Source: Rhytidiadelphus loreus
Lineage: Eukaryota; Streptophyta; Bryopsida; Hypnales; Hylocomiaceae
Assembly (NCBI GenBank): GCA_947034895.1
Contig: OX344763.1
Span: 82,913,093 to 82,977,092, forward strand
Length of the DNA: 64,000 nucleotides
Direction: 5' to 3'
This document shows positions 869-60,176 of this stretch, piece after piece (position 1 is the stretch's first letter; each line of letters opens with the position of its first letter). The translations under genes and the position numbers were made by a program. The notes beneath the pieces are model-generated. The model was not told the origin of the DNA and did no database searches. It saw only the letters and a list, made by a program, of their open reading frames with translations.

Positions 869-1000
869 GTAAGTTTTCTATGTACAGTCTTGTAATTAAT
901 CTTGATGCGAGTTGAATTGCTAGATTGTTTTGGAAATTTGTTTCATCTCAAGTCGAGTTGAAATGGTATCTGACCTCTTCGTTTCTCTAATCATTTTTAG
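869..1000 (+). repeat. Intron with two A-type 21-bp palindromes
   Basis: The GTAAGT donor at 869 and TTTTTAG acceptor at 1000 are clear, and the same intron exists in A2 (14736-14874). Two imperfect 21-bp palindromes of the A type lie inside it, at 896-916 and 942-962. Their right arms (GCGAGTTGAA, TCGAGTTGAA) are closer to the consensus than their left arms. The matching intron of element B (38452-38649) also has two palindromes, but of the B type. Confidence 0.8.
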
Positions 1001-1129
1001 ATGCAGTCACTGGAGTACTACGTCATTGGCGACTCCAAGTACAATGAGAAGTTCTTGATTTTGACTGTAGCTTCCGAGTACCTTGACAAGGATGACTTTC
1101 TTGATTCAAGTTACTTCGTGGATCAAAGA
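1001..1129 (+). pseudogene. Exon following the methylase-like segment (A1), cut by insertion
   Basis: The exon starts MQSLEYYVIGDSK after the acceptor and matches A2 (14526-14735) and B (38209-38451, MFEAFFYGFVDKED). In a methylase fold this would correspond to the strand after the glycine-rich loop, where the motif ends in IG(I/D). The reading frame runs to 1129, where a CACTA-like element begins. The roughly 500 bp that follow in A2, coding for the coiled coil, are missing here, so the insertion was accompanied or followed by a deletion. Confidence 0.6.
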
Positions 1130-2810
1130 CACTACAAAAAAAACCTGTCCTAAATGACTGGAGGAAATGACAAAAATATGAGTATGTGTCCGGAACAACT
1201 GAAAAATGACTTAGAATTCCATAATTGCACCAGCCAAATCGGAATAGTCATTTGCAAGTCATATTTCAGAATCGCGAACGAGGGTGCACCCTTCGTAGAC
1301 TTTCATCCGCGGTTTTCAGTTCTCCTTGGGAACGAGATTACATTGGGAACTGCGTGAAGGCAGCGGCGGTTTATTCAGCCATTAAAGAATGACTCGAAGT
1401 CACGAAATACTATTGCCCGTGTCTTTGTAGTGAGTAAGAAATGACTTTATGATTTTGGTTGGGTAATGTTGCCCGCTGTGGCGGACTTTGGGCAGGAATT
1501 AAAAAATTCAAAGCACGTATGCAGTGTAGGACTTCGAAGACGCGGCTTCTAGTAACTTGAATGAGACTCAGAAATGACTACCTCACAACAGAACGCCAAG
1601 TAGGGTGGATTTCCACTACCAACTGGACATATGATATGACTTTCGCCTCAAATAATATATAATATGACTTTCAGGAAGATTGAAAAATGAAGGGAAATGA
1701 CTCATATTGACATGTAGTCCAACTCAAATACTTATTGAAAATACATTTTGTTGACCATTGCATCAATATTCAAAAAGTAAAGGATCCAAAGTCTTTATTG
1801 CATGTGGTTTGCTAACAATATAAATACATGGAGTGCTTCCCCTAGGTTTATCTTATTCATTTATTCTTAAACATCTTCTTCTAGAATACAAGACTTCTTT
1901 TGTTTTTTTAATTTTATTATAAAATGATGCATTGTTATTGGTCTTTTTCTTTATTCGTGTACACTATTTTTTTCTTTAGAGTCCATTTCTAAGATTTATT
2001 TAAATTCCAATAAATATGCCACCAATACTTCTAGAAATGTGTGCAATTGTTATTGCACTAGTTTTGAACACTCCATATGATTTACATTTGAAATATTAAG
2101 AATTTCAATAAATATACACTAAGGTATTTAGAAAAGACCCAATAGTAATTATTAAGTCCCATTTTTTCACTCTGGTTCTACTACAATATGACTTTGTGTG
2201 ACTACGAAACAACTACTCAAAAGTCTAGTACTCTTCCTATGTCAATCCTTTTCAAATCTTTCAACAAATTTGTCTATAACTTTTGATTTAAGGCTCAAAT
2301 CTGAAACGAATTTTTGGAGGTGAAAGTGACAATGATCTTCTAACCTTCATTAGTTCAAAGTTTAAAAAAAAAATTCATATACTATGCCTCAGTGAGGTTC
2401 AAAATATTATTTGTAATGCAATTCCTGTGTTGTACATATCCCACAAGCTTTGTCTTGCCAACTACTATCCTCCTTCTATAAAATGCTTATCATTTCTTCT
2501 ATTCATACTCACACATTAAGTTGCTTTGGAATGATGCATGGCATATGGTATATGGTATATTCTATATGGTGAATTGTGTATGGCGTATGGTGTATGGTGT
2601 TTTGTATATGATGAATTTTATATGGTGTATTGTATGTGGTGTATTGTGCAATACAAAATTATTGTGTATAGTGTATCATTGTAAAATTTTGAATGTATTC
2701 ATATATGACTATTGAGTGACTACTTCCCATATAATCACTTCACAATGACTTCCATGTGACTTTGACGTGGATGTTCACATCAGCAACACTCAAATTACAT
2801 TACAATTGCA
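1130..2810. mobile_element. CACTA-like element, 3' terminus lost
   Basis: It begins CACTACAAAAAAAACC, a typical CACTA terminus, exactly where A1 departs from A2. The start resembles that of the element at 62290 (CACTACAAAAAAACGG), and both carry many scattered AAATGACT and GTCAC motifs. Close to the right junction there are again GTGACT and GACGTGGA motifs, but no TTGTAGTG end. A1 homology resumes near 2820, so the right end was probably removed with part of the host exon. No transposase coding is visible; the element is non-autonomous. Confidence 0.65.
2525..2690. repeat. Degenerate TATGGTGTAT repeat tract
   Basis: Short degenerate copies of ATGGTATAT and TATGGTGTAT follow one another for about 160 bp. 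The reverse complement of the same motif (ATACACCATA) makes up a tract at 22265-22520, inside another CACTA-like element. The 64-residue open frame here is a by-product of the repeat. Confidence 0.6.
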
Positions 2811-2825
2811 AAATGATAACCTATA

Positions 2826-3284
2826 GTTCATTAAGGACATTGTCTCCAACATCCCTCAGTTGGTGGTGTCAACTGTGAGGCAGATCCACCCGGATCTTCT
2901 GCTAGCGGTTGCGCGATTGCAGTAGATGTCTCTGGCAGAAACATCTTCCCAGCTCATGCTTGGCAACCGGCCTCACACATCCGCGGACAGTGCCATGCAG
3001 TAGTTGACGTCGTCTCGTAATCCATCACAGAATATGACGACATCCGAGGATGTGCTTCCTACTCCAGCTCCATCATCCGCTGCCATAGATCCGGACGACG
3101 CTGTGGCTGAACCCGATCACGAGATCGAGGATGAAGGTCAGGACGACATGGCAGAGGATTCGGCAGACATCCCTTTTGATCCTGAGGCCGAAAATGTAGT
3201 TAGTAGGACGCCGGCGAAATGGGTACATGCGGACCCTGTGACTGATGCTCTTCCAGGTTGTTCCTCGTGACTCTTAGCATGTAT
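2826..3284 (+). pseudogene. Acidic linker exon of the family A large gene (A1)
   Basis: This matches A2 13668-14105. It encodes a low-complexity acidic stretch (for example EDEGQDDMAEDSADIP) ending in ALPGCSS near 3268. A stop at 3001-3003 (CAG CAG ancestor) is next to a different stop in A2: A1 reads ATG CAG TAG and A2 reads ATG TAG CAG, so the two adjacent glutamines were hit independently. No domain is recognisable. It probably links the coiled coil to the HAD domain. Confidence 0.55.
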
Positions 3285-3305
3285 TTCAACTCAACTTGAG
3301 TTGAA
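3285..3305. repeat. A-type palindrome, perfect
   Basis: A perfect 21-bp palindrome with one unpaired central base; half-site TTCAACTCAA. It sits in the non-coding gap after the acidic exon. The A2 counterpart is at 13640-13660. Confidence 0.85.
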
Positions 3306-3464
3306 GCTCCTTCCACTATGCGTGTATTAGTTTGACCAGCAATGACACTTTCAGTTAGTTCTAGGATAGGCCAAACTATACGCACTTTGTATCTTCCTCT
3401 CTCTTCATGAGACATTGTAATATATATTTTCTCTTACCATATCCTTGTCGTGTTCAATTTCCAC

Positions 3465-3745
3465 AGTCGTAGGGTCTAAATGTATCGACTACGTTGCTCC
3501 ATGTCCTAGGCCTGTTGTAGATGATTCTCCACCACATGCGTCTCCTTCGTGTCCTACGGGAAATCAAGTTGAGGATGATCATCTTCCTTAACACAATGCA
3601 AAGGTCCTCGAAGTCATTCTTGATAACGTGGAGGTGCTTGAAGTCATTTACAAAGTCGCGGAGGTGGTGATAGATGATGTTCCTTGTGGTGAAGAAGAGG
3701 ATCCTGAAACGTCTCCTCGAAATGTTTCATTAGAAGATGCGGTAT
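3465..3745 (+). pseudogene. Second acidic exon of the large gene (A1)
   Basis: After a CACAG acceptor-like site the frame encodes a Pro/Asp/Glu/Val-rich stretch with repeated (K/E)VLEVI and VIDDVPCGEEEDPE motifs. A2 has the same exon at 13200-13480. One TAA stop (at about 3591, after HLP) breaks the frame. It is probably a disordered acidic region preceding the HAD domain; no function can be assigned. Confidence 0.5.
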
Positions 3746-3839
3746 GTAATTTGCCATGTTTGTACTGTTGTGCGTGTCGTGGTTGTTGTGACTGACCTTG
3801 GTTCAAAACATTGTTTATTTGTTGGCCTCATCGATGTGT

Positions 3840-5201
3840 TCTATAGTCTGCTATGCTTGACTTCGGTGTAGCCTTCGCAATCAAATTTGACCCAGTGTAA
3901 TTTCCAGTGTGTCTTTATTCCTTATGAGCAGGGTACCAGTGAGGAAATCGTAGGTGATTTAATTGCGGATGTGCAAATTTGTAGTCCGTTCACATCCAGA
4001 TTCAATAAGAAATGGTTGAATGTCGTTCTAGATCTAAATGGACTACTGTGCTTTTGTGATGATATGAGATATCACATAAAAGAAAGGAGAGTATGCTCTC
4101 TTCATGAGGTAGTCCCGAGAGCGGAGAGCTTCATCATGGAAATGGAAAGGGTCACTTTCCGACCCCATGTAAGAAGGTTTGTGTGGGAATTGACCTCTTT
4201 CACAAACGTCGTAATCTGGAGCTCCATGGACCAATCCTACGCCAAGCTCATTGCTAATTGTCTCTTCCACGGGCTAACGCCCCCCTCCGGTGTTCTTGGC
4301 CAAGAACAATGTATAGTCATGAAATTTAGAGACAAAAATGACATGCTACAGAACAACAGGTTGAGGGGATCGCGCAAGGACCTGTTTCTCAAGCCATTGG
4401 AAAGGTTGTACAAACTAAAGGGGTCCGTCTTCACTAAAGACAACACTATAATAGTGGACGATAGCTCCAAGAAACACTTCTTGAATGATTCTAAAAAACG
4501 TAGTGCTCCTAGACTTGTGGTCATTTGACGGACAAGGGCCGAGAGACGGGGTCCTCATATTTGAACTCCTGCCTTGGATTAGGAGATTGCATGTAGAGAG
4601 GCCATAGAAATTGTTTCCTTTTTGTAGAGATGATGCTGTGGGGAGGATCTACCTCAAGCATGATATCGACCAATCCAAATACAAGGAACTTCAGAGGGCA
4701 CTTGCGGTCTACAATAGACTTAAAACACAATATTCGTTATTTTGGGAGTTTTCCTATCTCCCAATTTCGGTTGGTTTGCGATGATCTGAATCACAGATTG
4801 GGAAATTGGAATTTTTGAATGGCCATAACTTACTCAAATTTTGTCCAAACTGGGCATATGAGGTGTTTTTTGACATCTACAGATTCCGTAGATGTCAAAA
4901 AACACCTCATATGCCCAGTTTGGACAAAATCTGAGTAAGTTATGGCCATTTGAAAATTCCAGTTTTCCAATCTGTGGTGCAGATCAGCGCGAACTGCGCT
5001 GAACTGCATACTCCCAAAATCATGGAATTCTCCCAAAATAATGAATATCGTGTTTTAATAGAGAACGAAGAGTGGATGAATTCGGGCGTACTATTCCTTT
5101 GGCGAAACCACGTGCAACGGGCACAACGAAGCGCAAGGAGCTCACCCACGAAGACATCTATTTCCGTCCTTGTCCGCCTCCCGAACAAACTTGTCTATAG
5201 G
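3840..5201 (+). pseudogene. FCP1/NIF-like HAD phosphatase domain (A1, decayed)
   Basis: The frame shows the order of motifs of the FCP1/NIF branch of HAD hydrolases. Motif I is VVLDLNGLLC (about 4023-4052), motif II is VVIWSSMD, and motif IV is NTIIVDD near 4443-4463. The usual DxDGT is DLNG, so the second catalytic Asp is Asn. The same Asn is kept in A2 and B, so it is ancestral. Decay: one extra A in a run near 4492-4497 shifts the frame; TAG at 4605-4607 replaces a Trp of A2; a MITE (4724-5054) splits the C-terminal part, which ends near 5201 in PCPPPEQTCL. FCP1-like enzymes dephosphorylate proteins; activity here is doubtful. Confidence 0.75.
4724..5054. mobile_element. Hairpin MITE with TTAA target duplication
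   Basis: This 331-bp insert is absent from A2, where the target reads CTTAATAG. It is flanked by TTAA on both sides (4720-4723, 5055-5058). Ends are AACACAATATTC and its inverted near-copy, followed by GTTATTTTGGGAG. The middle folds into a nearly perfect long hairpin around GACATCTACAGATTC at about 4880. A TTAA duplication is typical of piggyBac-type elements; the assignment to that superfamily is an inference. Confidence 0.85.
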
Positions 5202-5309
5202 ACCTCTAGAAATTTATAGACGCTGTAGTTGTGTTGAGAGGGTACGCCTTAAAATGTAATTTATATTGTTTTATCAAATACAATTCATCATTCATATTTG
5301 CAGTGGAAT

Positions 5310-5935
5310 ATTTCTGTGTTGTGCCCAGGAATAAAGGAATGCTGTAGCTCTTGTAATTTGGCATGTCATGTACTCAGAGGCCACTGCACAGTCGACAATG
5401 GATTTTTCAATGATGGACATAGACGATGGCATTGTTGATAGTCCTCCCAATGGAGGGAAGCGCCCCAAAGTAATGCACTCTCCATCTTCTCTAAAGTCCT
5501 GCTCGCAAACTACCCGGGATTGGTCTATAGTCAATTTGGAAACGTAGAGGAAGCTCTACGATGAAGAAGTGGGTGTAGTGGCCTTTATGGAGGTGTATTA
5601 TCAGTGATTGAGTGAAATGTTTCGACAATTGTGTCTGTCTTTATGTTTCGCTTTGTAGACGTTGTAGGTTATGAATGTCTTATTTTATTGGTTTTGGTAG
5701 GTGGAGGATTCAATGCCTATATCTGTTGCCATGTTGGGCAACACTTCCAAAGGCGTGAAGAGTATACAATTAGAGAAGCGGAATGCAATAGCCGAAGACG
5801 CATTGCCTCGTCTGTCTTCTTTGGATATCGTAAAACGACAATGCAAAACAAATGATGGATTGCCTCCTCTTTATTGTAGGACTGGTACGTGGGATGCTTG
5901 GGAGTGGAGGTCTTTAAAGAAACAACAATGAGAGA
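5310..5935 (+). pseudogene. Tail exons of the large gene (A1)
   Basis: Two exons follow the HAD domain. The first (about 5330-5610) encodes MDFSMMDIDDGIVDSPPNGGKRPK and SPSSLKS. The second (about 5701-5931) encodes VEDSMPISVAMLGNTSKGVKS and ends SLKKQQ at a TGA. Both match A2 (8007-8330 and 7660-7917). Element B has the conserved motif DGVVDSPP..G and SPSPLK in the same place. No known domain is seen; the pattern looks like a disordered tail with a short linear motif. Confidence 0.6.
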
Positions 5936-6129
5936 ATGCGCGACAATTATCCACTAGGCGTAAAGGATATAGTCAAGGCCTAGAAATATTGAAGAGTAGG
6001 TCACAATCATAGCATGTAGAGTTAGCATCATCGTTATCGCATTCATAGTATCTACAGATAGCATCATGTTCAAGCTTCCATAATGCTCAATACATTGCCA
6101 TTATGATTTTACTTCCGAACATATTGTGT

Positions 6130-6256
6130 ATGTTTGTCTATTAATGTATTCTTCTCTTGTGGTGGTGGGCATGAAATTCTTCTTGCATTGTTAGTTTATG
6201 AAGCTCGTAGAACTCCCATTTCATTGGAAAACTCCCATTTTAATGAATATGATGTT
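6130..6256 (+). repeat. Right terminus of A1, with ATGATGTT outside it
   Basis: The last 115 bp match, inverted, the start of A2. The terminus contains AACTCCCATTTCATTGG, then AACTCCCATTTTAATGAAT ending at 6248. Homology to A2 continues through ATGATGTT (6249-6256) and then stops. These 8 bp are either part of the element or a shared target sequence. Confidence 0.7.
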
Positions 6257-7507
6257 ATTGTTGTTCTTTGCGCTTTGGCAAATTTATCTAGACATTCCCA
6301 AATGCATTCTCCCTCTTTGCATGCAAGGATAAGCAAGGTTTTCATTTTACATTGTTCATTTTATTTGTGAAAATGTAAAATTATCTCAATTGATTAGCAA
6401 GGCTCTATTGGATGATGTTTAAATGTGATATTTCAAAAGATGAAGGTATCATTGATACAGTGGATTTTTGCCATGCAAGGTAGAGAACTAAAGTGTCATC
6501 CTAAAACTTTTATTTTCATTTTATTCTTTCTTCAGTTAGGAACCATGAAGGTCCAATTTTAGTTGTAGAATGTATACATTTTTTGTTGTATTCTCCATGA
6601 AATAATAATAGTTGTAATAATTACTCTTCTATAGACTAAGAACATAGAACCATCATCTTGAGAGCTTTTGGTAGGTTTTGGGATGTACAGAGAGTGTAAG
6701 CAAAAATCCTTATCAATATGCAATGTGTGATTGTTGTACATCACTTGGTTCATGGAGATCTCCAAATGCATACTTAGAAAATGGGAATTCTCTAGATGCA
6801 TAGAAGAACAACTAGAGATTTTAGCAATATTTTATTTTTGAACTCCTCTAAAGTCCTAAAATAGTTAAATGTGGCATATGGCCGGAATTCCATTTGAATC
6901 CAAGTAGGATGTCACTTGTTCCAGCTGAGTGTGTCTAACAAGGATATTGCCACCATCGACATATTGTGCAAACCACAAAATCCGTTTTTTTCAATATTTA
7001 GATAGAATAAAGAATAAGGTATTTTAACTTGGTAAAATTTTTTTATTTCTTGAGACCCAATTGGAGAGATTACTAAGATTATGGATTGAGAACATATAAA
7101 TTATTTTATAGAGATAAAATGATTAAGGTAAACTAAGTTTCTGGTCCTAATCGAAAATCGGAATTGGGATATGGACGAGGAAATGGTTTCCAGATCCTCT
7201 CAAGTATCAAGAATACATGATGGACCCTACCGGAACCTAGCAGGAACTACAGTAGGTCACAGGGAACCAATGGAACCCTAACGGAACTCCCAATGGCAAG
7301 ATCGGGAATTTTCTGGAGAACACGAATCAGAACCCAAAATGGCTGGAAAGAAGGCCATATGACAGGGGCTTGGGGAAGTCACTCCCATTGTTGGCTGTCA
7401 CATATTTTTCTTTGGATTGTTGCTCATATGTTTAGAGGTTGTTTTTGAGCTGGAAGGGAGCAAGTTAGGAATTGAGTTCGGATTCCAGTTGAGAGGAAGA
7501 CGGACAA
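6257..7507. other. Spacer between the inverted copies A1 and A2
   Basis: About 1.25 kb of AT-rich DNA without a convincing gene, promoter or repeat. The few short open frames are random. It may be the host DNA between two insertions or the remains of an older element. Confidence 0.5.
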
Positions 7508-7620
7508 AACATCATATTCATTAAAATGGGAGTTTTCCAATGAAATGGGAGTTCTACAAGCTTCATATACTAAGAACGCAAGAAGAATTTCATACCCACA
7601 ACCACAATTTCTCTATTGCC
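7508..7620 (-). repeat. Left terminus of A2, with AACATCAT outside it
   Basis: It reads AACATCAT, then ATTCATTAAAATGGGAG, and a second AAATGGGAG 10 bp on. It is the inverted match to 6130-6256. The end is clearly related to the B end (ATTCATTAAAATGAGAC at 27091). Confidence 0.75.
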
Positions 7621-7654
7621 TTTCATATTTCTGGCCCTCGACTATATCCTTTAT

Positions 7655-8335
7655 TCCTAGCGGATAATTGTCGCGCATTCTCTCGTTGTTGTTTCTTCAA
7701 GGACCTCCGCTTCCAAGCATCCTACGGACTAGTCCTACAATAAAGAGGAGGCAATCCATCATTTGTTTTGCATTATCGTTTCATGATATCCAAAGAAGAT
7801 AGACGGGGCAATGCATCTTCGGCTATTGCATTCCGCTTCTCCAATTGTATACTCTTCACACCTTTGGAAGTGTTGCCCAACATGGCAACAGATATAGGCA
7901 TTGAATCCTCCACCTACCAAAACCAATAAAATAAGACATTCATAAGCCACAACGTCTACAAAGCAAAACAGAAAAACAAATACGATTGCTCAAACATTTC
8001 ACTCAATTAATGATAACACACCTCCATAAAGGCCACCACACCCACTTCTTCATCATAGAGCTTCCTCTGCATTTTCAGATTGACTATAGACCGATCCCGG
8101 GTAGTTTGCGAGCAGGACTTTAGAGGAGATGGAGAGTACATTACTTTGGGGCGCTTCCCTCCATTGGGAGGACTATCAACAACGCCATCGTCTATGTCCA
8201 TCTTTGAAAAATCCATTGTCGACTGTGCAGTGGCCTCTGAGTACATGACATGCCAAATTACCGGAGCCACAGTATTCCTTAACTCCTGAGTACAAGATAG
8301 AGATATTCCAATGCAAATATGAATGATGAATTGTA
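7655..8335 (-). pseudogene. Tail exons of the large gene (A2)
   Basis: Two leftward exons. The exon at about 8007-8290 encodes MDFSKMDIDDGVVDSPPNGG and SPSPLKS and then reaches a GTGTTATC donor-like site. The exon at about 7655-7917 encodes VEDSMPISVAMLGNMATGV-type sequence with a Lys/Arg-rich end. Both match A1 at 5310-5935 with small differences. They lie after the HAD domain in gene order and end about 140 bp before the element terminus. The motif DGVVDSPP is kept in element B as well; no domain is recognised. Confidence 0.6.
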
Positions 8336-8413
8336 TTTGATAAAACAATATAAATTACATTTTAAGGCGTACCCTCTCAACACAACTACGGCGTCTACAA
8401 ATTTCTAGAGGTC

Positions 8414-9182
8414 CTATAGACAAGTTTGTTCGGGAGGCGGACAAGGACGGAAATAGATGTCTTCGTAGGTGAGCTCCTTGCACTTCGTTGCGCCTGTTGC
8501 GCGTGGTTTCGCCAAAGGAATGGTACGCCCGAATTCATCCACTCTTCGTTCTCTATTAAGTCTATTGTAGACCGCAAGTGCCCTCTGAAGTTCCTTGTAC
8601 TTGGATTGGTTGAGATCATGCTTGAGGTGGATCCCCCCCACAACATCATCTCTACAAAAAGGAAACAATTCCCACAGCCTCTCTACATGCAGTCTCCTAA
8701 TCCAAGGCAGGAGTTCAAATATGAGGACCCCGTCTCTTGGCCCCTGTCCGTCGAACAACTATAAATCTAGGAGCACTACGTTCGTGCGATCATTCAAGAA
8801 GTATTTCTCTGGCCTGTCGTCCACTATTATAGTGTTTTCTTTAGTGAAGATGGACCCCTTTAGTTTGTACAACCTTTCCAATGGCTTGAGAAATAGGTCC
8901 TTGCGCGATCCCCTCAACCTGTAGTTTTGTAGCATGTCATTTTTGTCTCTAAATTTCATGACAACACATTGTACTTGGCCAAGGACACCGGAGGGGGGCA
9001 TTAGCCCATGGAAGAGACAATTAGCAATGAGCTTGGCGTAGGATTGGTCCATGGAGCTCCAGATTATGACGTTTGTGAAAGAGGTCAATTCCCGCATGAA
9101 CCTTCTAATATGGGGTCGGAAAGTGACCCTTTCCATTTCCATGATGAAGCTCTCTGCTCTCGGGACTACCTCATGAAGAGAG
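8414..9182 (-). pseudogene. C-terminal part of the HAD domain (A2), cut by an LTR
   Basis: Continues from 12865 after removal of the LTR. It carries HAD motif II (VIIWSSMD), motif IV (NTIIVDDRPEKYF) and then FDGQGPRDGVLIFELLPWI. A TAG at 8759-8761 stands where A1 has Trp (TGG). Apart from that the frame is open to the end at 8414, PCPPPEQTCL, and it lacks the MITE found in A1. With motif I at 12.9 kb the whole domain resembles FCP1/NIF phosphatases. The LTR insertion in an exon makes the gene non-functional. Confidence 0.75.
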
Positions 9183-12100
9183 TGTCGTGACCCAAAATCA
9201 CTCTGGGCGTATAGATACTATATAATTATAGTTATTTTTTTATTTTTTTCAATAGGAAATTCAATTTTTTATTTATTTAACCAGGTGCATAGCATAGTAT
9301 TGAAAACCGGAAGATAGGGAAATCATAAAATGATAAAGTAGTTAAGCAGGAAATTAGTAATCAACAGAACAGGAAATACTAAGGATATCGGGAAACCCAA
9401 TGCGGAGACCGGAATCGGGAATTGAGGCAGTAATTAGACTATCGGGCGACAACTGGAGCTAATTAGGACCACCAATGGTACCTGGCAATTACGGAACGGT
9501 CGGATTAACGGGTAATTAGTAGGAACGGTAGGATCAAACGGTAGGAAATTAGGGGTTTTCCGATCGGAAAGTTTAAAGCCAGGACATTTAGGGTTTCTGT
9601 ACACATTTCCGGCCTCCTCCGTTGTTGTTTGTTATTTTTTTCATGTGTAGTAGTTTTCGGGGTTTCCCAACATAGTATCTGTTTCAATACCTTCAGTTGG
9701 GGCAGTGAGCATGGTGAGGAACTATTGCAGTAATGTGAAGTAAGGAGACAACCATGACCGGAAGTGAGTCGAAAGAGGAGACTGTGAAAGTATCGTTGAA
9801 GCACGTCAGTCCGGTGATTCCGGAAGATGTAGTGTTGCAAGCGGATCTGCTGGAGGACTTGAGCCAGCTGGGCTGCACGGATTGCTGGAGAGACCATGGA
9901 ATTTCAAGGACGAGGTGATGGTGAGGGAAGTGTTACACCCACAGTCGAACGAGTGGAAGAAGACCATGCGAGCAGTTCCGGACAAATGGACCCCAGTGGT
10001 ATGGCGGGAAGTTTACGGATTCACAAGGGGAGGAGTAGGGCCCGCTTCAAGGACGGACAAGTATGCGGTGGGTAAGTTTTTAAACCCTCCTCACCCTAAG
10101 GATGGGTACACCGTGAGTGAGTGCAAAGACGATTGGGAAAGGAGGGTGTTAGAATTCCTGGTCCCCATCCTTAGTCCGGATAGGGGTACTAGGTTAACTA
10201 TTACTCTAGGCAACACGATTTTCGGTGCTCTGTCCGGAGACCGGAAAGTCGATTGGGGGTTAGTTTTGCGGGATCATGTGGGAAAGCTTTGTAAGGCAGT
10301 AGGGAAAACAAAGCCGTCTAGTCTTTCTCCTTTCCTTTACCACCTGTACCACGCGCATGACTGCATGAGAGTAGAAGAAAGGCGTGAGTATAAGGGTCAG
10401 GAAATAAGGCTAGCACATGGTATGAAGGCAGACTCAGAAGAAGAAAATGTGGAGAGACCGGAAGAGTCTTCCGGGGATTCCGGCAAGGATAAACCGGAAC
10501 AGTCAAAAAGGGAGGAACGAGACCCAGTCTGGGGGAGTGATCCGCTTAAGAAGATCATCAAGGATCTAAATCAGATTAGGGAGGGTCATGAGAAAGAAAG
10601 AAGTACCCTAGTTCGGGTGAATAAATTGCTAGGTGATATCCCCGTGAGTCAATGTGAGGAACAAATCCAGAATTTCATTTGGGATGCTGAGAGTAGGGCC
10701 GGAAAAGAGAAAATCACTGTACTGATGGATGAGGTGATCACCTTGAAAAAGGAGTTGAGAGAGAGGAGTCAGGAGAGTGATCAGGTGAGGAAAAACTCAA
10801 TCTGGTCAAAGGAGATGCTCGACCAGATTGCAGAGTTTACTGCATATCTAGCTGAGACACTAAACAAGGCCAAGCTCTTCGATGAAAAAGTTTTAGAAGG
10901 GGAAGGAAAAATAGGGAACAAAGTCATTAATGTTCTAGTTACCTTCCATTCACAACTGGAAGAATTACTTGTTCAGTTGAGGGATGTAGTGGGAGAGAGC
11001 AGTCAGCCTCCGAAATCGGAATCGAAACTGGAAACCACAGCAAGAAAGGAGGGTACTCCCGCCAAACCTCCCCGATCAGATAGTCAGCATATATCACCAT
11101 TGGGTCAGGATAAAACCGGAAAGTCTCCGGGAAGTGTGGAGGTTACTACGCCAGCGAAAGGAAGTGCTATGCAAGAATCCGGTGCGGATCGGGTATCTAC
11201 ACCTGGATCTCAGACTTGTGGTCAGACCAAAGTCAAAGAAGGAAGTCGGGAAACCCCGAAAAGTAAGAAATCGTCCGTTTCCCCGTCTCCAAGTGAAGCA
11301 GCAAAGAGAAGATCGGAGTTGCACAAGAAACCCATCGAGTTAGGGTCCGAAGAAGAAAAAAAAGAAGACGAATCTAAAGAGGAAGAGGAAGAATCCGGTT
11401 CCAGGAGTGGGGAAGAATTTGAGCCATACTCCGATCCAGACCAAGAATTAGCAGCTCCAAAGCGAACCAAGACCAAGTTGAAGGCATAGAAGTCAAAGAC
11501 GAAGAAGCGAAGGGCTTCGAATGTTTCCGGTTCTGCCCGGAAACAGCCAACAAGGAAGGGGGCTACCACTTCAGTCAAGACCCCAGCTAAGCGACAGAAG
11601 AAGTGATTTTAGGGTTAGGTAGAACAATAGTTGGGCGGCTAAAAACCTAAGTTTTTGGTGGAAAAGTAGTTTCCAAGTAGTTTTTAGGTGAGTAGGGAGT
11701 TTCTGTTGAAATTGCCTGGATCCGGATTTTTAGGATCTGAGATCCGTTTTTTATGGTAAGGGCCGGCTGATATGAAGTCAACTATGATGAGGATAAGGAG
11801 AATGACACGTGTCATTCCCTTGGGGTTTTACTTTTGATTCCCTCGGGCGGTAAAAGCCCTTGGGTTGTAAACTATTTAGGATTCAGATTTTTAGTTGTTA
11901 AGTGTGCATTTTCGGATCTTGTTTTCCTAGCATCGTGCAATACAAGTCAGAGCTTTCTGATTCACCTTTTGTGTTTGAGCGTACTTGGATGGCATAATCA
12001 GTCATTGTATGTTCATTTGGATTGCAGGAATAGGTAGAGGGGAAGTGTGCCCGGATGTTGGCTTTATCCGGATTCTGGAGTTTAAGTGAGTCTGTGTGAG

Positions 12101-13660: not shown

Positions 13661-13667
13661 ATAGAGG

Positions 13668-49879: not shown

Positions 49880-50020
49880 TCTAAACTTGGAAACTTCCGT
49901 TTGAATTTCAGTTTCCCACCTCATACATCCCGCCATATCTCACTCCCACCCTCTCTCTCTTTCTCTCCCTCCGTATTCGGAAGCAAGTTCAACACCACTA
50001 GCTGATGCGCATCATTTTCA
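49880..50020 (+). promoter_or_regulatory. Probable transcription start region of the B transposase
   Basis: A pyrimidine tract (CACCCTCTCTCTCTTTCTC, about 49947-49965) stands out in AT-rich DNA, 1 kb before the ATG. The leader between it and the coding exon holds the six B-type palindromes, so these are likely in a 5' UTR intron. Confidence 0.4.
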
Positions 50021-50977: not shown

Positions 50978-51006
50978 TTCTAACTATTGGTCTTCGTATT
51001 TTCAGA

Positions 51007-53845
51007 ATGGATTTTCATAGACCTCATGAGTTTGTAAATCCAGTTCCTACACTTCCAGATGGTGTTCAAGCTTGCGAAGGAATTCCTTGTGCAAAATGGG
51101 TGTCATTGCCCGTCACTCTAAGAGATGAAGAGGGGTTGGATGTCGCAAGGGGTGTTTGTCAAAATGTTGATCCAGATTTGGTCATTGACATGGATAAGAA
51201 GCCTCTTGGTGATGATCGAGTTGCCATTCAGATTGCAGAGTCTTTGAATGAAGAGTTGTTCTCATCTGCAAATATATGGTCGTTGCGTTCTTGGCACATT
51301 AAACGAGTGTTTCTCCATGATGGTGTAAATTTGTATGACCATGACCAGACCTATTTATACAACATGGCTGTAAACGCCTCAAACAGAAGAGTTCGTAAAG
51401 GGGTCCGATCATATGAAACAACTCGTGAGAAGGTTGATCCTGTTGTGCCTCCTAAGAGAGAACTTCTCCTCACTATGGAATCCATCACAACAGTTTCCAC
51501 GAAAACATGTTGTAGTAGAAATTGTGTGCAACCTTTTCTTTGTGAGCAAATTCAAGCAATTTGGCGGTTATGACTTCAAGGCTCGCAACAAGATACTTTT
51601 AGAAGTGCATAGGCAGATCCACAAAGATGGTGATGGCAAGGAGTGGATAACTTTGAAAGGTAGGGAAGTATGTCCCACTACATGGTGGATCATTCACGGG
51701 ATTGCGAAAACTACCTACTATAGGTATAAAGAAAAGGCCCAAGTTGGAAAGCAATCTGAGGTCCACGGAAATGTGGGATCCAAGAAGCCTCGCATGCATA
51801 CTCTTCAAGCTACTGCCACACTTCGACAACTTATTGAGTCTGATGCAGATAAAATGCCACACAAAACAAGAACACTAGAGTCTGGAGAGAAAGTCCCATC
51901 AATGGTTCTACCATCTGCATTTTGTTGGAGTGAGCAATTACCAAAAATCAACGAGTGTACTGCATCACTTGACTTGCAACCAATTTCTTCTAGTGGCTTG
52001 AGCAACATTCGCCATGCTTCTTTCCCAAAATTTGCTGCAAAGGCTCGTGGAGACACTTTTGCAAGGTGTGGGCTATGTGATACATACAAGCAATTGAGGA
52101 GTGCTTGTGTGTGTTCAGAGACACAAAATAAGTGGACAAATCTTTTGAATATCCACGTTGTTGGGCAGAAGGCACACAGGGAATACTACTATGGAAATCG
52201 GTATTTTTCCGAGACATATCCAGAGAAGATGTTGTGCATCATTCATGATAAAATGGATCATTCAAAGACATCTTCTCCACACTTTTCTCACAAGACCAAA
52301 GTGACAGAGTCCTTCATGAAAATGCCCGTTGCTGTTACAAGTATGATTGCTCATGGTCATGGAGATGTGCAATATGCACACTACGGTTTGGGCATTTTCC
52401 CATTTGATTCAAATCATACCATTGGATCCATTACAAGGTTGTTGCGTGATTTGGAAGGACCGCCAAAGAATTCATCGCGTACATTATTCTCTATCGAGAG
52501 AGACCAATCCACCTTGATGAAGGCACTTCTAAATGGAGCAGAGAATTGCTTGGACTCCCTCCTTCCACCTCTCCAAGAACCAATTCCGGCTCAACCTCTC
52601 CCACCAGTATTAGTATTGCAATTGGATAATGCTTCAGGGGACATCAAGAATCGATATGTTTTTGCTTTTTGCTCTTTGCTTGTATATAAAGGCATTTTTC
52701 GTGAGGTGTACATCAACTTCCTCATTGTGGGACACACTCACGAAGACATTGATGCTCTTTTTGGTTGATGGAGCTCAAGATTGAAGACAAATAACTACCC
52801 AACACTTCCTTTGCTCATGAAATCCTTCATGGATTGTGAAACGCATCCCGTGATTCCTCATCTCATCGAGGAGCTTCCTGATTTCAAGAAATTTGTGGAG
52901 GGTTACTTGGGCTCTCACGGGGACTACCTTGAAGGACATTTGAAGTCCCAACAATTTAAGTTTTTTATCGATTCTTCAGGATGGCCTTTGATGGAGTATA
53001 AGAATTTGTGTACGGACGATAAGTGGTTGCCAGAGCATGGCAAAGGAATTAGGTTGTGGATTGAGAGTGAGGATGGACTTCCCATAGTGCCAAGTGGTAG
53101 TCTTCTACCTTTGGCTCCTCAGCCGATGAAAGCTCTTGATGACATAAAAAAGGGCTTGAATGGTTATGTTGGACATTGGAACAAAATGGCAAATGACGAT
53201 TATACTGGAGAGTTTAGGCGGAAGAATGGTCCACTACAAGATTATTGGAAAGGCGTCAGAAGTGCTTTGGATGCTCCTCTTCAGGTGCGTGAGGCGTTAC
53301 TTGATGGTTTTTGGCTGGCTTCCAGGATCGCACCTGACGAGACAGATCGAATGCAAAGAGATGACACATTGCGTGAAGAGGATGCAGAGGATGCACCCTT
53401 TGTTGAACGTAGACGTGATCGTCCACGTCCTTCATTTCGTGTTAATCGTGATACGCACGCAGGTTCTTTTGTTGTGGTGCGTCTCGCAGATCATGACTCG
53501 AAGCCATTTTGGCTTGCCAGGGCCATTACAGCTTCCAGCCTAGATCCGGGGCATATGCATAAGATCAAAATCCAATATTGGACACCTACTTCGGATCGGC
53601 ACATTAATATGGAGAACTATGCCGAATGGGACACCAAAGAAGGGAATGTGTGGCGTGAGGATTGCGTAATACCTTCAGATTGGGCAAATACAGATTGTAT
53701 CATGACAGCTTGGAAGCCACGTTTTCGTGAAACAACTAAACATCCAAAAGTGACAATTCCAAGTACCCAAATTGATATCATAAAGGCATCAGTGGCGGCC
53801 TTTACGACAACTGCAACTAATGATGACTCTATGGAAGAAGATTGA
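51007..53845 (+). pseudogene. DUF7869-type transposase-like gene (B), one frameshift and one stop
   Basis: The start ATG (51007) follows a TTTTCAG acceptor. N-terminal blocks EGIPCAKWVSLPV and AIQIAESL are shared with the A copy. A Cys-rich block (STKTCCSRNCVQPF) follows, then a frameshift near 51565 where about ten codons are lost relative to A. Then come IIHDKMDHSKTSSP, IAHGHGDVQYAHYG, VLQLDNASGDIKNR and GHTHEDIDALFG, with a TGA at 52766-52768 where A has Arg (RWS), and the C-terminal half to 53845. D of HDKMD, D of LDN and the H/D cluster of GHTHEDID are candidates for an RNase H-like catalytic centre. The last 130 residues (GSFVVVRLADHDSKPFWLAR) look like a small beta-barrel reader domain. 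Probably the mobility protein; only the motif match supports this. Confidence 0.75.
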
Positions 53846-54369
53846 TTAGTTCATAGTTGTAATTACTAGTAGACTATTATTTTGGTAGTTCAATTACAAT
53901 TAGAATGATCATTGCAACTATCAATATGTTTTGAGATGTTTCATTGATATATGTATTGGTTTTATTATGATAGTGTGGCTATGTAAGTAAGGAGATCCTA
54001 TTTCTATTAATAGTAAACTTATTTCATACTATTGCATCTTCAAGCTTTATATTTAACTAATTTTTTGATATATTTTGTTTATTTTTCATGTGTTTCATAT
54101 CAAAGTTTCATATCTCCAATATGTAGATTAGTGCTTTCAATTGACATTTGTAAGTCTCAATTTAAAGAAATATCTCACTTTATAATGTCTTTGAGTATTT
54201 TTTTCCCTTCTTACAAATAAGTTTGTAAATCCAAATGTGATTTCGAATTTTTGCTACATTTTTTGATGGTAGAAAAATAATCAAATACATTTTTTGACAT
54301 TTCTAAGTCTCAATTTAATGAAGAGTCTCAATTTAATGAAAGATTTCTTGATCCTAAATATAGGAATGA
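53846..54369. other. 3' region between the B transposase and the right end
   Basis: AT-rich, presumably the 3' UTR of the transposase. TTTGACATTT(C/G)TAAGTCTCAATTTAA recurs near 54142 and 54292. No gene. Confidence 0.45.
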
Positions 54370-54415
54370 ATTAAAATGAGACTGCAACTTGTCTCATTTT
54401 AACGAATAAGGCCTT
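54370..54415 (-). repeat. Right terminal inverted repeat of element B
   Basis: GTCTCATTTTAACGAAT (54391-54407) is the inverted match to 27091-27107, with AAGGCCTT at 54408-54415. Just inside, TTAAAATGAGAC (54371-54382) forms a small hairpin with the terminus. Confidence 0.8.
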
Positions 54416-55051
54416 TTAATCGTAAATCGCCGCTTACAAAGCGCCGCTACCTCACAGAGCTTGGGCGGCAACCAATTACAACAACTCGAAATCCAAGCAC
54501 AACAATCACAGAGCAGAAGAAAAAAGAACGACACCTGAGCACAATTGTCACAAATACTCGCAAAAGGAAGAAAGATGGCAATCAATCACAGAAGCGCACT
54601 AACGAAGCTCACTCACGGAAACTCATTGTTGAACCCTAAACTGAAGAACAAAGTGAAGAACCCTAAATTGAAAAACAAGAACCCAAAAGCAGGTGGTCAC
54701 ACTGAAAAAGTACACAAATGTTGCAAACTCCTTCTAACACGTCGCAGAACTCCGCAAAAGACGAGGTAAAATTTAACAAAACAAGTCGCAAATACAAAAC
54801 CCTAGTTCGCAAAACACAAAACATTTCGCGAAACAGGAAATACAAAACCCCAGTCTCTAGGCAGACTCGAGTTTCGGGGAGGGGTCGTGTAATCTGGGCC
54901 CTCCATGGCAATCGAGCGTGCGAATTGAAGATTGCTGTCTCTAGCGCATTTAGCCTTCAAATATGGCAGGACATAAGGTAACATGCTCTAAATGTGCCCA
55001 ACTTCTTTATACCGCCCCTATTTTTAGGTGGAAAATGGAGATGGGGTGATC
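54416..55051. other. A2 DNA flanking element B
   Basis: Moderately GC-rich with telo-box-like words (GAACCCTAAACTG near 54635, GAACCCTAAATTG near 54658, AAAACCCTAG near 54798). It may be part of the A2 leader on the far side of B, resembling in style 42.6-43.9 kb of element B. No convincing gene. Confidence 0.4.
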
Positions 55052-55629
55052 TTTAACCCCTGAACGTCTGGATTCATCTCCAAAATTGACGATTTGAGAA
55101 AAAACATTATAAACTACAATTTGGAAGAATATTTTGGAATTGGTATACAAATGGAAGCTCTAGATTTTGATTTTTAAATTCTATCTGTACAGTTAGATCT
55201 ACTAATGCTATCACCAATTTTTTCTATAAATTTTGAAAAGAAAATTTCAGAAAACCTTTTAAATTCAATTACAAGTAAAATTTTATCATTTTTTGAGTAA
55301 AACTTGTTGGAATGGATTTGAAATAAGGTTTTGTTCATGTTGTGATTTTTTGAAATTTTTGTGACCTTTACATCTTTGACCTTGTTTTTGCACATCTAGT
55401 TTTGAACTAAAGTCAATGCAAATTGACCACTTGACATACTTCCACATTTGTAATTTTAGAAATGTATATATTCTAGTAACACCAAATCCAACCGATGGAT
55501 AGGACACCAACTTGATAAAGTATCACCAAAAATTAGGATGACTTTCATCCAAGCAAGAATGAGACAGGAACAAGGATCTGAATCTGTTCATCGTCCAGAA
55601 AATGGACGTCGGAGCGCTCTAGGGTTAAA
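55052..55629. mobile_element. MITE-like element, TTTAACCC ends, 578 bp
   Basis: TTTAACCC at 55052 and GGGTTAAA ending at 55629. Inside each end GAACGTC and GACGTC words follow. It shares both ends with 44043-44271 but is longer. No target duplication is clear and no protein coding is seen. Confidence 0.5.
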
Positions 55630-55689
55630 TGGACCACTTTAGCAATTGAATGCATCAAGGAATTTTTTTTTAATTGATTCTTATTATAA

Positions 55690-57075
55690 AAAAATTATAC
55701 TACTGATCTATATAAATAATAGAAGATATAAAATCTAAGATTAAAATATGAATAGTACTATTCAATTAGGCAATTTAATTAATTAATAAAAAGTTTGTAT
55801 GAAATCACTATATTTAGAGTGTTACATTTCAACCCATCACAACTAATTTCATACATAGTTTGTCAATATTGTATTCATTATCATGTAAAAATCAGGTGCA
55901 ATTAAGATTTGAAGGGTTAATGAAATTTTATTTCTTCCATTATATCAATTGTGATTAGTGTGACTTCTATTTAAGCAGTCAATGACCACCTTTTGAATAA
56001 AGAATAAAGAATTTAAAAAAAACCTTCAAGTGTGCTTTAGGTGTGCATAAGGAGTGCGTGAAGTGCTTCAAATGTGCATGAGGTGTGCTTGAAGTCTAGC
56101 TCAAGCACACCTCAAGTTCACTTCTTTTTTTTTAAATGAGTAAAGAATTTCAACAAACTTTTTTTCCATTGTCATCTAAATTCATTGCAATGACAATAGT
56201 AAAAGTGTGGTTGAGGTATGATTGAGCTAGTCCTCAAGCACATCTAAAGCATAGGTAAAACTTGAAATATCTATGCATTTTATTTGAATTTCAATTGTAT
56301 GGATGTCTTCTAAAGAGGATGACACCCCTATACTCATTAGAGTTGAAGGTACAAAAATGTTACACAAACATTGTTTATAATAGCTTTCGGTATCGCCTAA
56401 AGTCTTCACTCTTTAGACACCTAGTACGGATTAATGTTTACAATAAATTGTTTTAGGCCTAAAGTCTTCAAATACCTATGGATTAATTTACTTTTATGAT
56501 ATAAATTCATATTTTATTTTCAATCTTTTTTCTTTAAATGTTTCACTTCCATTTTCCTTTACATGTTCAAAGAAGATTAAGCTTTCCAAAAAAACATTTT
56601 ACATTTTATTAATGTAACTAACCCCTACTTCTGAGGTTAGTGTCATTAGTCACATGTGAATTAACAAGCTTTTAACATTCTATAACTTTTTATAACAAAT
56701 TCAAATAATACTCACCAATGTACATTGGAATTGCCACAAACCCATATATAATAAAACTTTTTGAACTTGTATATGATGCACATATAGTATTGAAGCAAGC
56801 AATAAAAACATGATACAAATTAATGTTACACATAATATATGCTAATACCATAACCATAATAAATTCACCATTAAAAACACTATAATTTGAATCTTCATTA
56901 AATGAATAACACCAAACAACTAGTTTTGTGATGGCTTGAAATGTAGCACTCTAAGATTAGTGATTTTATGCACACTTTTTATTCAATAATTATATGCTGT
57001 AATTGAATAGCACTATTCACATTTTTAATCTTAGATTTTATCTCTTCCATTATTAATACACTGCAGTAGGTACTC
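55690..57075. mobile_element. Element with about 150-bp terminal inverted repeats
   Basis: The left arm (about 55690-55845) and right arm (about 56925-57075) are imperfect inverted copies. Examples are AAATCTAAGATTAAAA with its complement TTTTAATCTTAGATTT, and AGTGTTACATTTCAA with TTGAAATGTAGCACT. The outermost shared bases are CTACTG...CAGTAG. The interior is AT-rich, with some GTGCTT(G/C)A(A/G)GTGTGC-type words around 56030-56110. The long arms recall Mutator-like elements, but I could not define a target duplication. Confidence 0.6.
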
Positions 57076-57945
57076 TTAAGATGTAAAGAAATGAACATTC
57101 AAGAGTATTCAAAAGCATTGGAGAAAATCTTGTAAACTATGGTATGGATAGGGAAGATTTAATATGGATTGGTAACGTCATAATTATAAAATTTAAATAG
57201 TGATTTTTGTCATACCTTTATAATAGTAATGACTATATATGAAATATTAAGAATCCTACATTTCATGGAAATATAAATCCGTAGACTCTTTAAAAGTTTA
57301 ACATTCAACCTTTCTATTGATTTTTATTATATCCCTTACAAGGAATTGAAGTGTGCCTCAATGTAAATGACACGTAGGGGACATCATAATGGGATTTTTC
57401 AAACACTCATTGAACTCCAGTGCTACATTTATGTTAGTGAAAGCCCAATGAGGATTATTTGAAAGCATGTCCTAGTATTGTATTGCAAGTACTAGTAGGT
57501 ATTCATGAGCAATCATATAAATTTTGTATGAGTGCTTTCATTGTTTTTAGTGTTTCAATAATGGGATTGCTGTCAAAGAACATAAATTTCACAACATGAT
57601 TTTTTTTTTAAAAGCATTTCATTGAGTGCAATGATTCATTTTACAGTATATTGTTGTTGTTCTACATGTTAAAAGTACATGTCAAGTATGATTCTTTTAT
57701 GAACCTCAAATAATTTAATTCGGTATTATAGGTTAATGTAGTGATTAAAGTATTTGGAATACTTGCAACTTTTACATCTTCTTTTTGCATTCCATAACGT
57801 AGAAATTCCATGTGTTCATAATTTAGGAGTTTTCAAATACAAGACTGACGTGGCTAAATAATTCAATTATTTTATTATCACACAATTTTTTACTAGAAAT
57901 ATATTACAAATATCTTATAAATTCTTACTGAAAATCTCCTAAAAA

Positions 57946-58006
57946 GGTCATTACTTAAAATGTTATCTCTAGGACTATACTTAAAACACCCCTCTCTCTT
58001 GTAGTG
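57946..58006 (-). mobile_element. Solitary CACTA-type MITE terminus
   Basis: AGGTCATTACTTAAAATG, then AGGACTATACTTAAAACACC and a CTTGTAGTG end at 58006 match the right arm of the MITE at 44311-44531. The left arm is not found nearby, so it is a fragment or the end of a longer, diverged element. Confidence 0.7.
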
Positions 58007-58755
58007 AAAATGAATGAGTATAAGGCATGGTTTATTATTTGTTTTTTTTATTCCCATGTATGTTTCAATAAATCTATGGAAATCAAGAAAATTGAAGAGT
58101 ATATAGAAACGAAGAATCTTTTTTTTAAAAGACCTATGATCCCCTGTATTTTGAAGTGATTGAATTTTAAATTCCAACAAATGAATTTGTGAAAGAAGAA
58201 AAATTACAATTTGTAGAAGTTAAAAACCATCTAAAGACCTTTGGTATATGATACTTTTAGGATTGGATTGTGCATAAAAAATTGAAGCCTAAATAGAAAT
58301 CAAACATGATTTAAGAAAGCCATCACTTATGTTTTAAGGTACTCCAAGTATTCTACATTCTATCATATTAATATGAAAAAGAAGGAAAAGTATAGAGGAT
58401 GATGGCTCTTTTAAAGTAATATGAAGTTTTTCAATACTTGGAAATTTGTTGACTATGAAAAGAATGTGAGGCCTATATACAATGTGGAATAATTATTATT
58501 CACTATTTATGTATTGTCACGTATGTATACGACCCACAACCAAATGATTCCAAGAATTATAAATCCTTCAGGTATTTGGAAGTTCCAAATTGTTTTCGTT
58601 CATTCATGTACAAATTCCATGAGTTCATCATTTTTGATGTCTCTTAGTTCATTTCAATTCTCCAAAATATTTGCGTTAATATTAAGAAATTGCTACAAAG
58701 TCTATGTTATGATTTTTTATTACCAAGAACATGTATATTCTAAATTATGAAGACT
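58007..58755. other. AT-rich stretch without recognised features
   Basis: No gene, palindrome or repeat seen. Confidence 0.5.
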
Positions 58756-59339
58756 CTGAATCCAAGAACCAGAACCCTAAATCCTAAACCCTAAGATCTT
58801 CAATAAAAAAAAGGACCAGCATTTTCGGCACTCCGTAAGGTCCAGAAGGACTGAACTTGCATTTTGAAAATGACTCAACAATCGCTTTCCCTAATTCCAG
58901 TCCACGTGAAATATACGGATCCTAAACCAGGAATGCGTTCACTCTTCGGCACTATTCATCAGCGTCTTATAGGGAAAAGAGATTCCTCTCCAGAATTGGC
59001 CCATGACTTTCAGTGATAGCCGTTTCAAATGTCGTCCAACTTTTCCCACTGAGGATATCCCACCTATGTGCGATGCTGTGTCTCCTCACCAGCGAAACAT
59101 TTCCGTGCCATTTTTTTGTTCTGCTTTTGTGTCTCGAGTCAATATTCTTTACGCTGTTCTTCGAGGTCCACTACCTTGTTCTAACGCCGCCTTCTATTAT
59201 TTTGATTGTCGGCCATTTCTCTAGTTCTCATTAACATGCTAGTGTATGGGGTTTGATTGAACGGCTGTTCATTCTCAGTTGGCGAAGTGTGGTAGGTTTT
59301 CTCATCACGAAGTGAAATTTCAATCCAGAAAATTCTGAA
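58756..59339 (+). promoter_or_regulatory. Probable promoter and first leader exon of the A transposase
   Basis: Telo-box words (GAACCCTAAATCC and TAAACCCTAAG, 58770-58793) precede a less AT-rich block to about 59230 that includes no long frame. A-type palindromes follow and the coding exon starts at 60270. The order telo-box, leader, six palindromes, coding exon resembles the B leader. Confidence 0.45.
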
Positions 59340-60176
59340 TTCAACTCGACTCGAGTTAACGAAATAACCAAACATTGACAATAAAGAATCATTCTATCTA
59401 CTGTTCAACTCGGCTCGAGTTGAATATTTGGTCTAAGTATTGAACTGAAATGTTAATTTGTAATGAATGTAAAATAATTTTCACCACTGTTTACTTGGTA
59501 TTTAAGTCGACTCAAGTTGAAAAGATATCCTTGAACGTTTGGTTTGGATTCCAATAAACATGATGTATATAAACCCAATCCCTCATACAGGTTAATGTGC
59601 TCTCGCCATTTAACTCGACTCGAGTTAAAAGGCTGACTTGTATAGTGAGATGCTTAGATGTTCAATGGTGATTGATATTTTTGTATCTTATTTAATGAAG
59701 GTTCTCTGGATTGAACTCATGACACTTGTGAATTAATTTATATTCAATGGAAGTCATGGTGAACATGTGAATGCTAATTGTAACTTTACAGTTAAAGATA
59801 TATATGCCTATGATTAATTTCTTCATATCAGAAGAATTTTTAACTCGATGCGAGTTGAACCTTGAATTCATAATTATTATCCCTGGAAACTTTTAATATT
59901 AAAATAATCAACGAGTACATTGAAACTTCAGTTGAACAGGAATGAATGGACACAATTTAAATGTTAGACATTATTGGTGTTTTTATCTATATAGAAATCT
60001 AGAGTGGATGTATTTTTCAGCTAAAGTTAGTTATTTTTTATTCAGTGAAATGCGTTGTTTGATGACTTCTTCTTCTATACAATAAGTTGTGTTCGTAATT
60101 ATGAACTGGAATTTTATTATTCAATGTTGCGATTAGTTAGATTATTGTCTGAACATTCAACTCGAGTCGAGTTGAA
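59340..60176. repeat. Six A-type palindromes upstream of the A transposase
   Basis: Sites at 59340-59360, 59404-59424, 59501-59521, 59609-59629 (perfect, TTTAACTCGA half-site), 59839-59859 and 60156-60176 (perfect, TTCAACTCGA half-site). The last ends 93 bp before the start codon. They lie in what is probably a 5' UTR intron ending at the TTTTACAG acceptor at 60264. Confidence 0.9.

Follow-up and report, generated by a model that had tools for sequence, protein, structure and literature searches.

A 64,000-nucleotide stretch of the genome of the moss Rhytidiadelphus loreus (assembly GCA_947034895.1, contig OX344763.1, positions 82,913,093 to 82,977,092; hereafter the window) holds three copies of one giant DNA transposon family, which we call A', A and B. 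The element has two divergent genes, one for a large fusion protein and one for a DUF7869 transposase. We found that A-type and B-type copies carry 21-bp palindromes at corresponding places in and around these genes, with a different half-site in each type. From sequence comparison we propose that the palindromes are operators of an element-encoded DNA-binding protein that acts as a symmetric dimer, most likely the large fusion protein, and that controls its own element. We put the chances of this proposal at about even.

Two palindrome families distinguish the elements

We scanned the window for odd-centred 21-bp palindromes with at most 4 mismatches in 20 positions, using the half-site TTCAACTCGA for type A and TTATCCTCGA for type B, and estimated the background from 50 order-3 Markov simulations of the window. 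Each pattern occurred at 19 places, compared with simulated means of 0.04 (A) and 0.02 (B) and a maximum of 1 for either. The two palindrome families described in an earlier sequence-only reading of the window are therefore far above the simulated background. Two further B candidates, at 27294 (5 mismatches) and 41825 (6 mismatches), bring the B total to the 21 counted in that reading.

Individual sites were scored on leave-one-out weight matrices against 30 simulations. All 19 A sites scored between 20.6 and 34.8, and the best of the 30 simulations reached 14.1. For type B, 20 of the 21 sites scored 15.7-31.1 against a mean simulated maximum of 11.1. Because one simulation hit 21.7, the B sites at 28045 (18.1), 50439 (16.1) and 41825 (15.7) are weaker. 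The candidate at 27294 scored 8.2, which is not above chance, and its removal leaves 20 sound B sites. All 19 A sites of the earlier count are sound, but three of them (896, 942 and 3285) mirror those at 14826, 14780 and 13640; they belong to the inverted A-type copy A' and so are not independent. Besides the sites, no place in the window scored above the highest simulated value.

The two types are fully separated. The best A site scored 6.0 on the B matrix and the best B site 0.4 on the A matrix; all listed B sites fall inside 27079-54419 and all A sites outside that interval, in agreement with the claim that neither type enters the other element. The half-sites are better given as TTYAWCTCGA (A) and TTATCVTCGA (B). 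The sequence-only reading had the types share an inner CTCGA, but position 6 of the B half-site is degenerate (C 21, A 13, G 6, T 2; n=42), so the firmly common core is TCGA. Neighboring palindromes are spaced from 46 bp to several kb apart. No tandem array in the window spans a sound site, and the array at 26122-26192 abuts the site at 26190. The 16-bp tandem repeats at 26617-26681 hold a degraded A-like site (26623), the only hint of tandem site growth.

Site placement is kept between A and B

Introns and start codons were read from the sequence against homologues (GT/AG), not from transcripts. The first site in putative intron 1 starts at intron base 14 in A and base 12 in B. In intron 2 the first site starts at base 29 in both elements and at base 28 in A', and each intron has a second site further in. 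A leader site lies 43 nucleotides (nt) ahead of the putative large-gene ATG in A (21834) and 47 nt ahead in B (41702), and each element has one site between the methyltransferase part and the NIF part (13640 in A, 30350 in B). The cluster reported upstream of the large gene was present in both elements, with four sites in A (26190-26542) and six in B (41825-42476), but its distance to the ATG differs, being within 0.9 kb in B and 4.4-4.8 kb in A. Six sites had also been counted before each transposase. This number held for A; B has five (50439-50957), with no further B site before its transposase at 6 or fewer mismatches. The last of these sites is 93 nt from the transposase ATG in A and 29 nt in B.

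The B sites at 27730, 28045, 28177 and 30350 lie within open reading frames close to the large gene's 3' half; those at 27730-28177, at its 3' end, have no A counterpart. Overall, the large gene holds most sites, with 13/19 of the A type and 15/20 of the B type. The matching introns, leaders and transposase upstream regions support the view that placement was kept while the half-site changed.

Half-sites track the protein in relatives with readable tails

All named relatives of both gene families came from Physcomitrium patens or Ceratodon purpureus, though most rows had no name and one set of relatives was listed for 120 of its 166 rows. C. purpureus carries numerous annotated copies of the large protein (P0003-P0018), several of them named after loci on the U or V chromosome, and one cluster of its relatives represents 139 member sequences.

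Many database proteins are open frames running from exon 1 into intron 1, and these tails were read for palindromes by codon choice, taking the intron to start at the marked valine codon. We hand-picked 25 tails from 86 relatives, leaving out spliced models, very short tails (P0031, P0038, P0040 and P0049; the 9-residue tail of P0040 showed no site) and frames that end short of the intron. A palindrome was present in 17 of the 25 tails, and the remaining 8 were undecided. Ten were A-like at a cost of 1 or less (0/100 shuffles), five were A-like at cost 2-3 (at most 2/100), and two were B-type at cost 1 (0/100). In most rows the intron position at which the matched site started ranged from about base 4 to base 58; for P0075 the best match started at base 80. 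The B-type tails are exactly those of the two relatives close to B's protein (identity 52% and 49%). When exon 1 was placed in a tree, these B-type rows grouped as a single clade on a long branch with 100/100 support, requiring one change of label. These results indicate, indirectly, that the positions correspond in further copies and that the half-site tracks the protein wherever protein tails allow a reading, as the sequence-only reading had predicted.

Matches to the variant half-sites C, C2, D, D2 and D3 are partly circular because these variants were picked after viewing the tails. With the window half-sites alone, P0001 (B) and P0048, P0056, P0066, P0067, P0075 and P0079 (A, cost 1-3) gave 0/100 shuffles, P0077 gave 2/100 for A, and P0002 retained a B match at cost 1. 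P0029, P0030, P0033, P0069 and P0081 failed on the A half-site alone (10, 13, 12, 32 and 32 of 100, the P0081 tail being miscut). The intron-2 tails of P0025, P0026 and P0027 fit well only with the post hoc variant D (cost 3, 2 and 2; 2, 0 and 0 of 100), and reached 40, 1 and 5 of 100 shuffles on the A half-site. B-like scores outside the B clade occurred in P0056 (cost 3, 0/100), P0079 (3, 2/100) and P0082 (2, 2/100), each of which was better as A-like. The variant half-site TTTAGCTCGA was the best fit in P0048, P0066 and P0079; we take its outer TTTAGC to equal half of the KorB operator, possibly by chance.

Among 23 N-terminal stretches of transposases that we scored, one (P0120) had sites. 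Most others begin, by our reading, at or near the start codon and hence carry no leader to read; P0126 showed no sites despite an N-terminal extension. Leader sites were found before the transposase in P0120 and also in P0014; a weaker one in P0084 stands 42 nt ahead of the ATG.

The large protein combines predicted DNA-associated folds

The large protein has about 1300-1590 residues and comprises an N-terminal domain that is possibly PH-like, a ParB/sulfiredoxin-fold domain, a methyltransferase-fold domain and a C-terminal NIF/FCP1-like domain, the last of which is joined to the rest in a single protein in mosses. The ParB/sulfiredoxin N-domain fold was the best match of the predicted fold in relatives, and the predicted methyltransferase fold was supported less firmly, so that structure models agree with the labels "ParB-like" and "methylase-like" given from the sequence. 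NIF was the sole domain above the Pfam cut-off in P0001, P0003, P0008, P0017, P0020, P0043 and P0060 and in the window's large-gene frames, 10 of the 19 listed open reading frames of the window having been scanned; the A' part at 3872-4528 also matches PF03031. Methyltransferase motif IV, [DNS]PP[YFW], was found in none of the 86 relatives, only some of which include this part. Of 17 aligned rows, 16 have D-x-R-x at its place; the remaining row is a frame tail without the domain. The DxD motif of NIF/FCP1 reads DLNG in all 11 rows found by a pattern allowing N or D, and the catalytic DxDx(T/V) of these phosphatases, which plant homologues are known to carry, was absent from those rows. For the transposase, DUF7869 (PF25273) was the sole match above the Pfam cut-off, and sequence searches found no relative of solved structure.

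A dimeric reader and its alternatives

The two halves of the palindrome vary independently, without significant covariation. G-U pairs are not commoner than A-C mismatches (8 vs 11 in A, 11 vs 11 in B), and position 10 is conserved (29/38 in A, 38/42 in B). Together these observations argue for a DNA-reading protein on two half-sites and not a hairpin, and they fit the dimer recognition suggested at the outset. Palindromes acting in RNA, as 9-bp hairpins by splice sites or as small-RNA sources, would explain why, in the window, sites start so close (intron bases 12-29) to 5' splice sites, and the mirror symmetry permits a stem with a three-base loop. Position 10 would lie in that loop, however, and no Rfam match reached the gathering threshold; we consider an RNA role very unlikely. 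The sites could also be hijacked from host transcription factors, with A and B using different factors or specificities. Promoter and first-intron placement suits ordinary enhancer elements, and the B half-site has GATAA on one strand, but a different half-site at the same places needs a coordinated switch at about 20 places. The lack of further window places above the highest simulated score also speaks against host factors, if weakly, as the window is mostly element. We regard this explanation as improbable.

Two alternatives keep the reader within the element. The transposase, or its gene's product, might read the sites for transposition or autoregulation, as with the subterminal repeats of CACTA elements. 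The transposases differ between A and B too, and 5-6 sites stand ahead of each transposase gene. Yet sites also occur in the leader and two introns of the large gene, and the element ends have a separate repeat. No site exceeds the simulated scores in the stretch from 50978 to B's right end (54419), and near the left end of B the first sound site (27730) lies 650 bp in, so the sites are not subterminal. This reading deserves attention but seems unlikely to us. Partition is the other alternative, in which a ParB-fold protein at parS-like palindromes would segregate or cluster element copies with no role in transcription. The ParB N-domain is the best fold match, and palindromic sites are typical of ParB-family proteins. 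Placement nevertheless tracks genes and introns rather than one locus, and no partner ATPase was found among the 10 of 19 listed window frames scanned against Pfam. We give partition very little credence.

We favor operators read by the large fusion protein. Its dimer would contact two half-sites of 10 bp each, which flank a single free base. The element itself probably encodes the reader, given that sites and protein co-diverge. We rank the large protein first among the candidates for its DNA-associated folds and because most sites belong to its gene. Binding would take place ahead of the two divergent genes and a short way into the first introns, and would control, or keep open, transcription of the protein's own element alone. 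The change in recognition would have come on the branch that separates the B clade from the other relatives, with the sites changing along, and would isolate A and B elements from each other. The outcome may be autoregulation or anti-silencing. Likeness in placement to the VANC motif regions of VANDAL transposons favors anti-silencing, which is plausible by that analogy. A more elaborate version, which we view as a long shot, is a captured ParB-like loading system: the helper would clamp at parS-like palindromes, spread along the 27-kb element and keep it transcribable, with private palindromes insulating the clades. The dead methyltransferase fold would sense or mask modification and the FCP1-like domain would act on RNA polymerase II, parts that share this same low standing.

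Several observations weigh against operators read by the large protein. The site-type switch is one clear event, so the co-variation rests on that event and on milder changes among A-like clades. P0043, which is outside the B clade and has a 10-residue tail, matched A and B alike at cost 4; its B match gave 0/100 shuffles with the window half-sites, and in the 25-tail test the values were 2/100 for B and 7/100 for A-like. The transposases co-diverge as well (35-55% between A and B pieces). No helix-turn-helix was recognized in the large protein, where the stretch after the ParB fold mostly has a predicted local distance difference test score (pLDDT) below 50; for P0005 the model averages 63. 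The N-domain of ParB has a fold that binds nucleotides, and it is not itself the part that reads DNA. CG pairs are intact in 28 of 38 cases in A sites, against about 0.61 per copy expected from the A/A' comparison; with a binomial p of 0.13 they are not clearly spared from decay. In B sites 36 of 42 are intact, B having no baseline of its own. Finally, elements A and B are both broken down by stops, frameshifts and missing parts, so present function is not inferable from these copies.

If the proposal is correct, sequence-specific self-recognition among plant transposons is not confined to VANDAL; mosses would add another, independent example that uses different proteins and a palindromic code. 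Co-evolution of helper and target would be directly testable in Physcomitrium and Ceratodon, which have long annotated relatives of both proteins, and the system would be a possible source of sequence-specific DNA-binding modules of a new type.

Structure of the elements

Element B is complete at 27.3 kb and nested in A, with A-type sites on both flanks. Its 29-bp terminal inverted repeats differ by 1 mismatch and have TTAA outermost at each end, tips that would fit a TTAA target site. The left terminus of A (7504-7550) bears a repeat related to the B ends; no right end of A was found within the window, and the element extends beyond the transposase at 62351. Other insertions and repeats accompany the elements. 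A miniature inverted-repeat transposable element (MITE)-like insertion at 4720-5058 has TTAAAACAC-type inverted ends that are TTAA-tipped and styled like the element ends. CACTA-type ends (CACTACAA...) form a 221-bp inverted pair at 44311-44531 and a single end at 58006 (57943-58007). Inside B, away from the palindromes, are tandem arrays whose periods are 162, 223 and 178 bp (32484-33134, 33706-35817 and 47108-48382, respectively), and a 573-residue open frame at 9768-11489, within the insertion that splits the NIF exon of A, has no Pfam match at E 0.01.

Table 1. Palindromic sites and element features, in window coordinates.
Feature	Position	Strand	Context
A site	896..916		A' intron 2, intron base 28
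A site	942..962		A' intron 2
A site	3285..3305		A', between methyltransferase part and NIF
A site	13640..13660		between methyltransferase part and NIF
A site	14780..14800		intron 2, second
A site	14826..14846		intron 2, start at intron base 29
A site	20252..20272		intron 1, second
A site	20317..20337		intron 1, start at intron base 14
A site	21834..21854		43 nt before putative large-gene ATG
A site	26190..26210		perfect; cluster upstream of large gene
A site	26304..26324		cluster upstream of large gene
A site	26375..26395		cluster upstream of large gene
A site	26542..26562		cluster upstream of large gene
A site	59340..59360		upstream of transposase
A site	59404..59424		upstream of transposase
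A site	59501..59521		upstream of transposase
A site	59609..59629		upstream of transposase
A site	59839..59859		upstream of transposase
A site	60156..60176		perfect; 93 nt before transposase ATG
B site	27730..27750		3' end of large gene
B site, weaker	28045..28065		3' end of large gene
B site	28177..28197		3' end of large gene
B site	30350..30370		between methyltransferase part and NIF
B site	38505..38525		intron 2, second
B site	38601..38621		intron 2, start at intron base 29
B site	40012..40032		intron 1, second
B site	40198..40218		intron 1, start at intron base 12
B site	41702..41722		47 nt before putative large-gene ATG
B site, weak	41825..41845		upstream of large gene
B site	41939..41959		upstream of large gene
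B site	42005..42025		upstream of large gene
B site	42232..42252		upstream of large gene
B site	42369..42389		upstream of large gene
B site	42476..42496		upstream of large gene
B site, weaker	50439..50459		upstream of transposase
B site	50499..50519		upstream of transposase
B site	50614..50634		upstream of transposase
B site	50752..50772		perfectly symmetric; upstream of transposase
B site	50957..50977		29 nt before transposase ATG
Element B	27079..54419		complete, nested in A
B left terminal inverted repeat	27079..27107	+	
B right terminal inverted repeat	54391..54419	-	
B large gene exon 1	40230..41654	-	N-terminal and ParB-fold domain (fold from relatives); 4 in-frame stops
B intron 1 (putative)	39955..40229	-	sites 40198, 40012; GT/AG read; homologues resume in exon 2
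B large gene exon 2	38650..39954	-	methyltransferase-fold part; frameshifted, stops
B intron 2 (putative)	38452..38649	-	sites 38601, 38505
B large gene NIF/FCP1-like phosphatase part	28940..29500	-	PF03031, E 9e-11
B transposase, DUF7869	51007..53845	+	PF25273; a frame change, one in-frame stop
Element A	7504..62351		B and other insertions inside; left terminus B-like; transposase at right
A large gene exon 1	20351..21790	-	N-terminal and ParB-fold domain; stops
A large gene methyltransferase-fold part	14875..15990	-	stops
A large gene NIF/FCP1-like part, second half	8762..9217	-	first half 12860-13033; insertion between
A transposase, DUF7869	60270..62351	+	PF25273, E 1e-43; in-frame stop 61221; C-terminal part missing
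Second A-type copy A'	1..6260 (about)		partial, orientation opposite to A, runs off window

Comparison with known systems

We compared the element with systems that share one or more of its features. The TTAA at the tips of B recalls piggyBac and other TTAA-targeting DNA transposons, but the transposase matches only DUF7869 above a Pfam cut-off, with no piggyBac transposase domain passing it. The C-terminal part scores above the curated cut-off of PF03031 in the window and in moss proteins, as NIF/FCP1-like phosphatases do; unlike these, it has DLNG in place of DxD and is fused to a transposon protein. The predicted fold of the methyltransferase part resembles beta-class DNA N6-adenine/N4-cytosine methyltransferases and MTA1/METTL3, without their motif IV. 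A ParB/sulfiredoxin N-domain fold, again predicted, links the large protein to the ParB, Noc and KorB family. At the place where ParB has its arginine box, the domain reads NGQH in 45 of the 46 alignment rows with residues there and NGEH in 1. In contrast to that family, the protein is eukaryotic and fused to methyltransferase-fold and FCP1-like domains, and no parS-reading helix-turn-helix was recognized, the modelled stretch after the N-domain being mostly of low confidence.

VANDAL offers a further comparison. VANC helpers bind their motif and remove DNA methylation, and the VANDAL transposase VANA is of the MULE type. Here the transposase is DUF7869 and the candidate helper has ParB, methyltransferase and FCP1 folds. 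The VANC21 motif is 9 bp (YAGTATTAY), in one-orientation arrays that grow by tandem duplication, unlike the spaced 21-bp palindromes found here. The likeness to VANC drawn in the sequence-only reading thus fails for the transposase and the motif form and holds for site placement, as PMC5735166 locates VANC motif regions upstream of VANA21 and within the introns of both VANC21 and VANB21. Like VANDAL/VANC of Arabidopsis (PMC5735166, PMC10398659), the moss system has element-specific non-coding motifs in helper-gene introns and upstream of the transposase gene, motifs that change between related elements, and a fast-diverging helper encoded by the element, for which the large fusion protein is our candidate.

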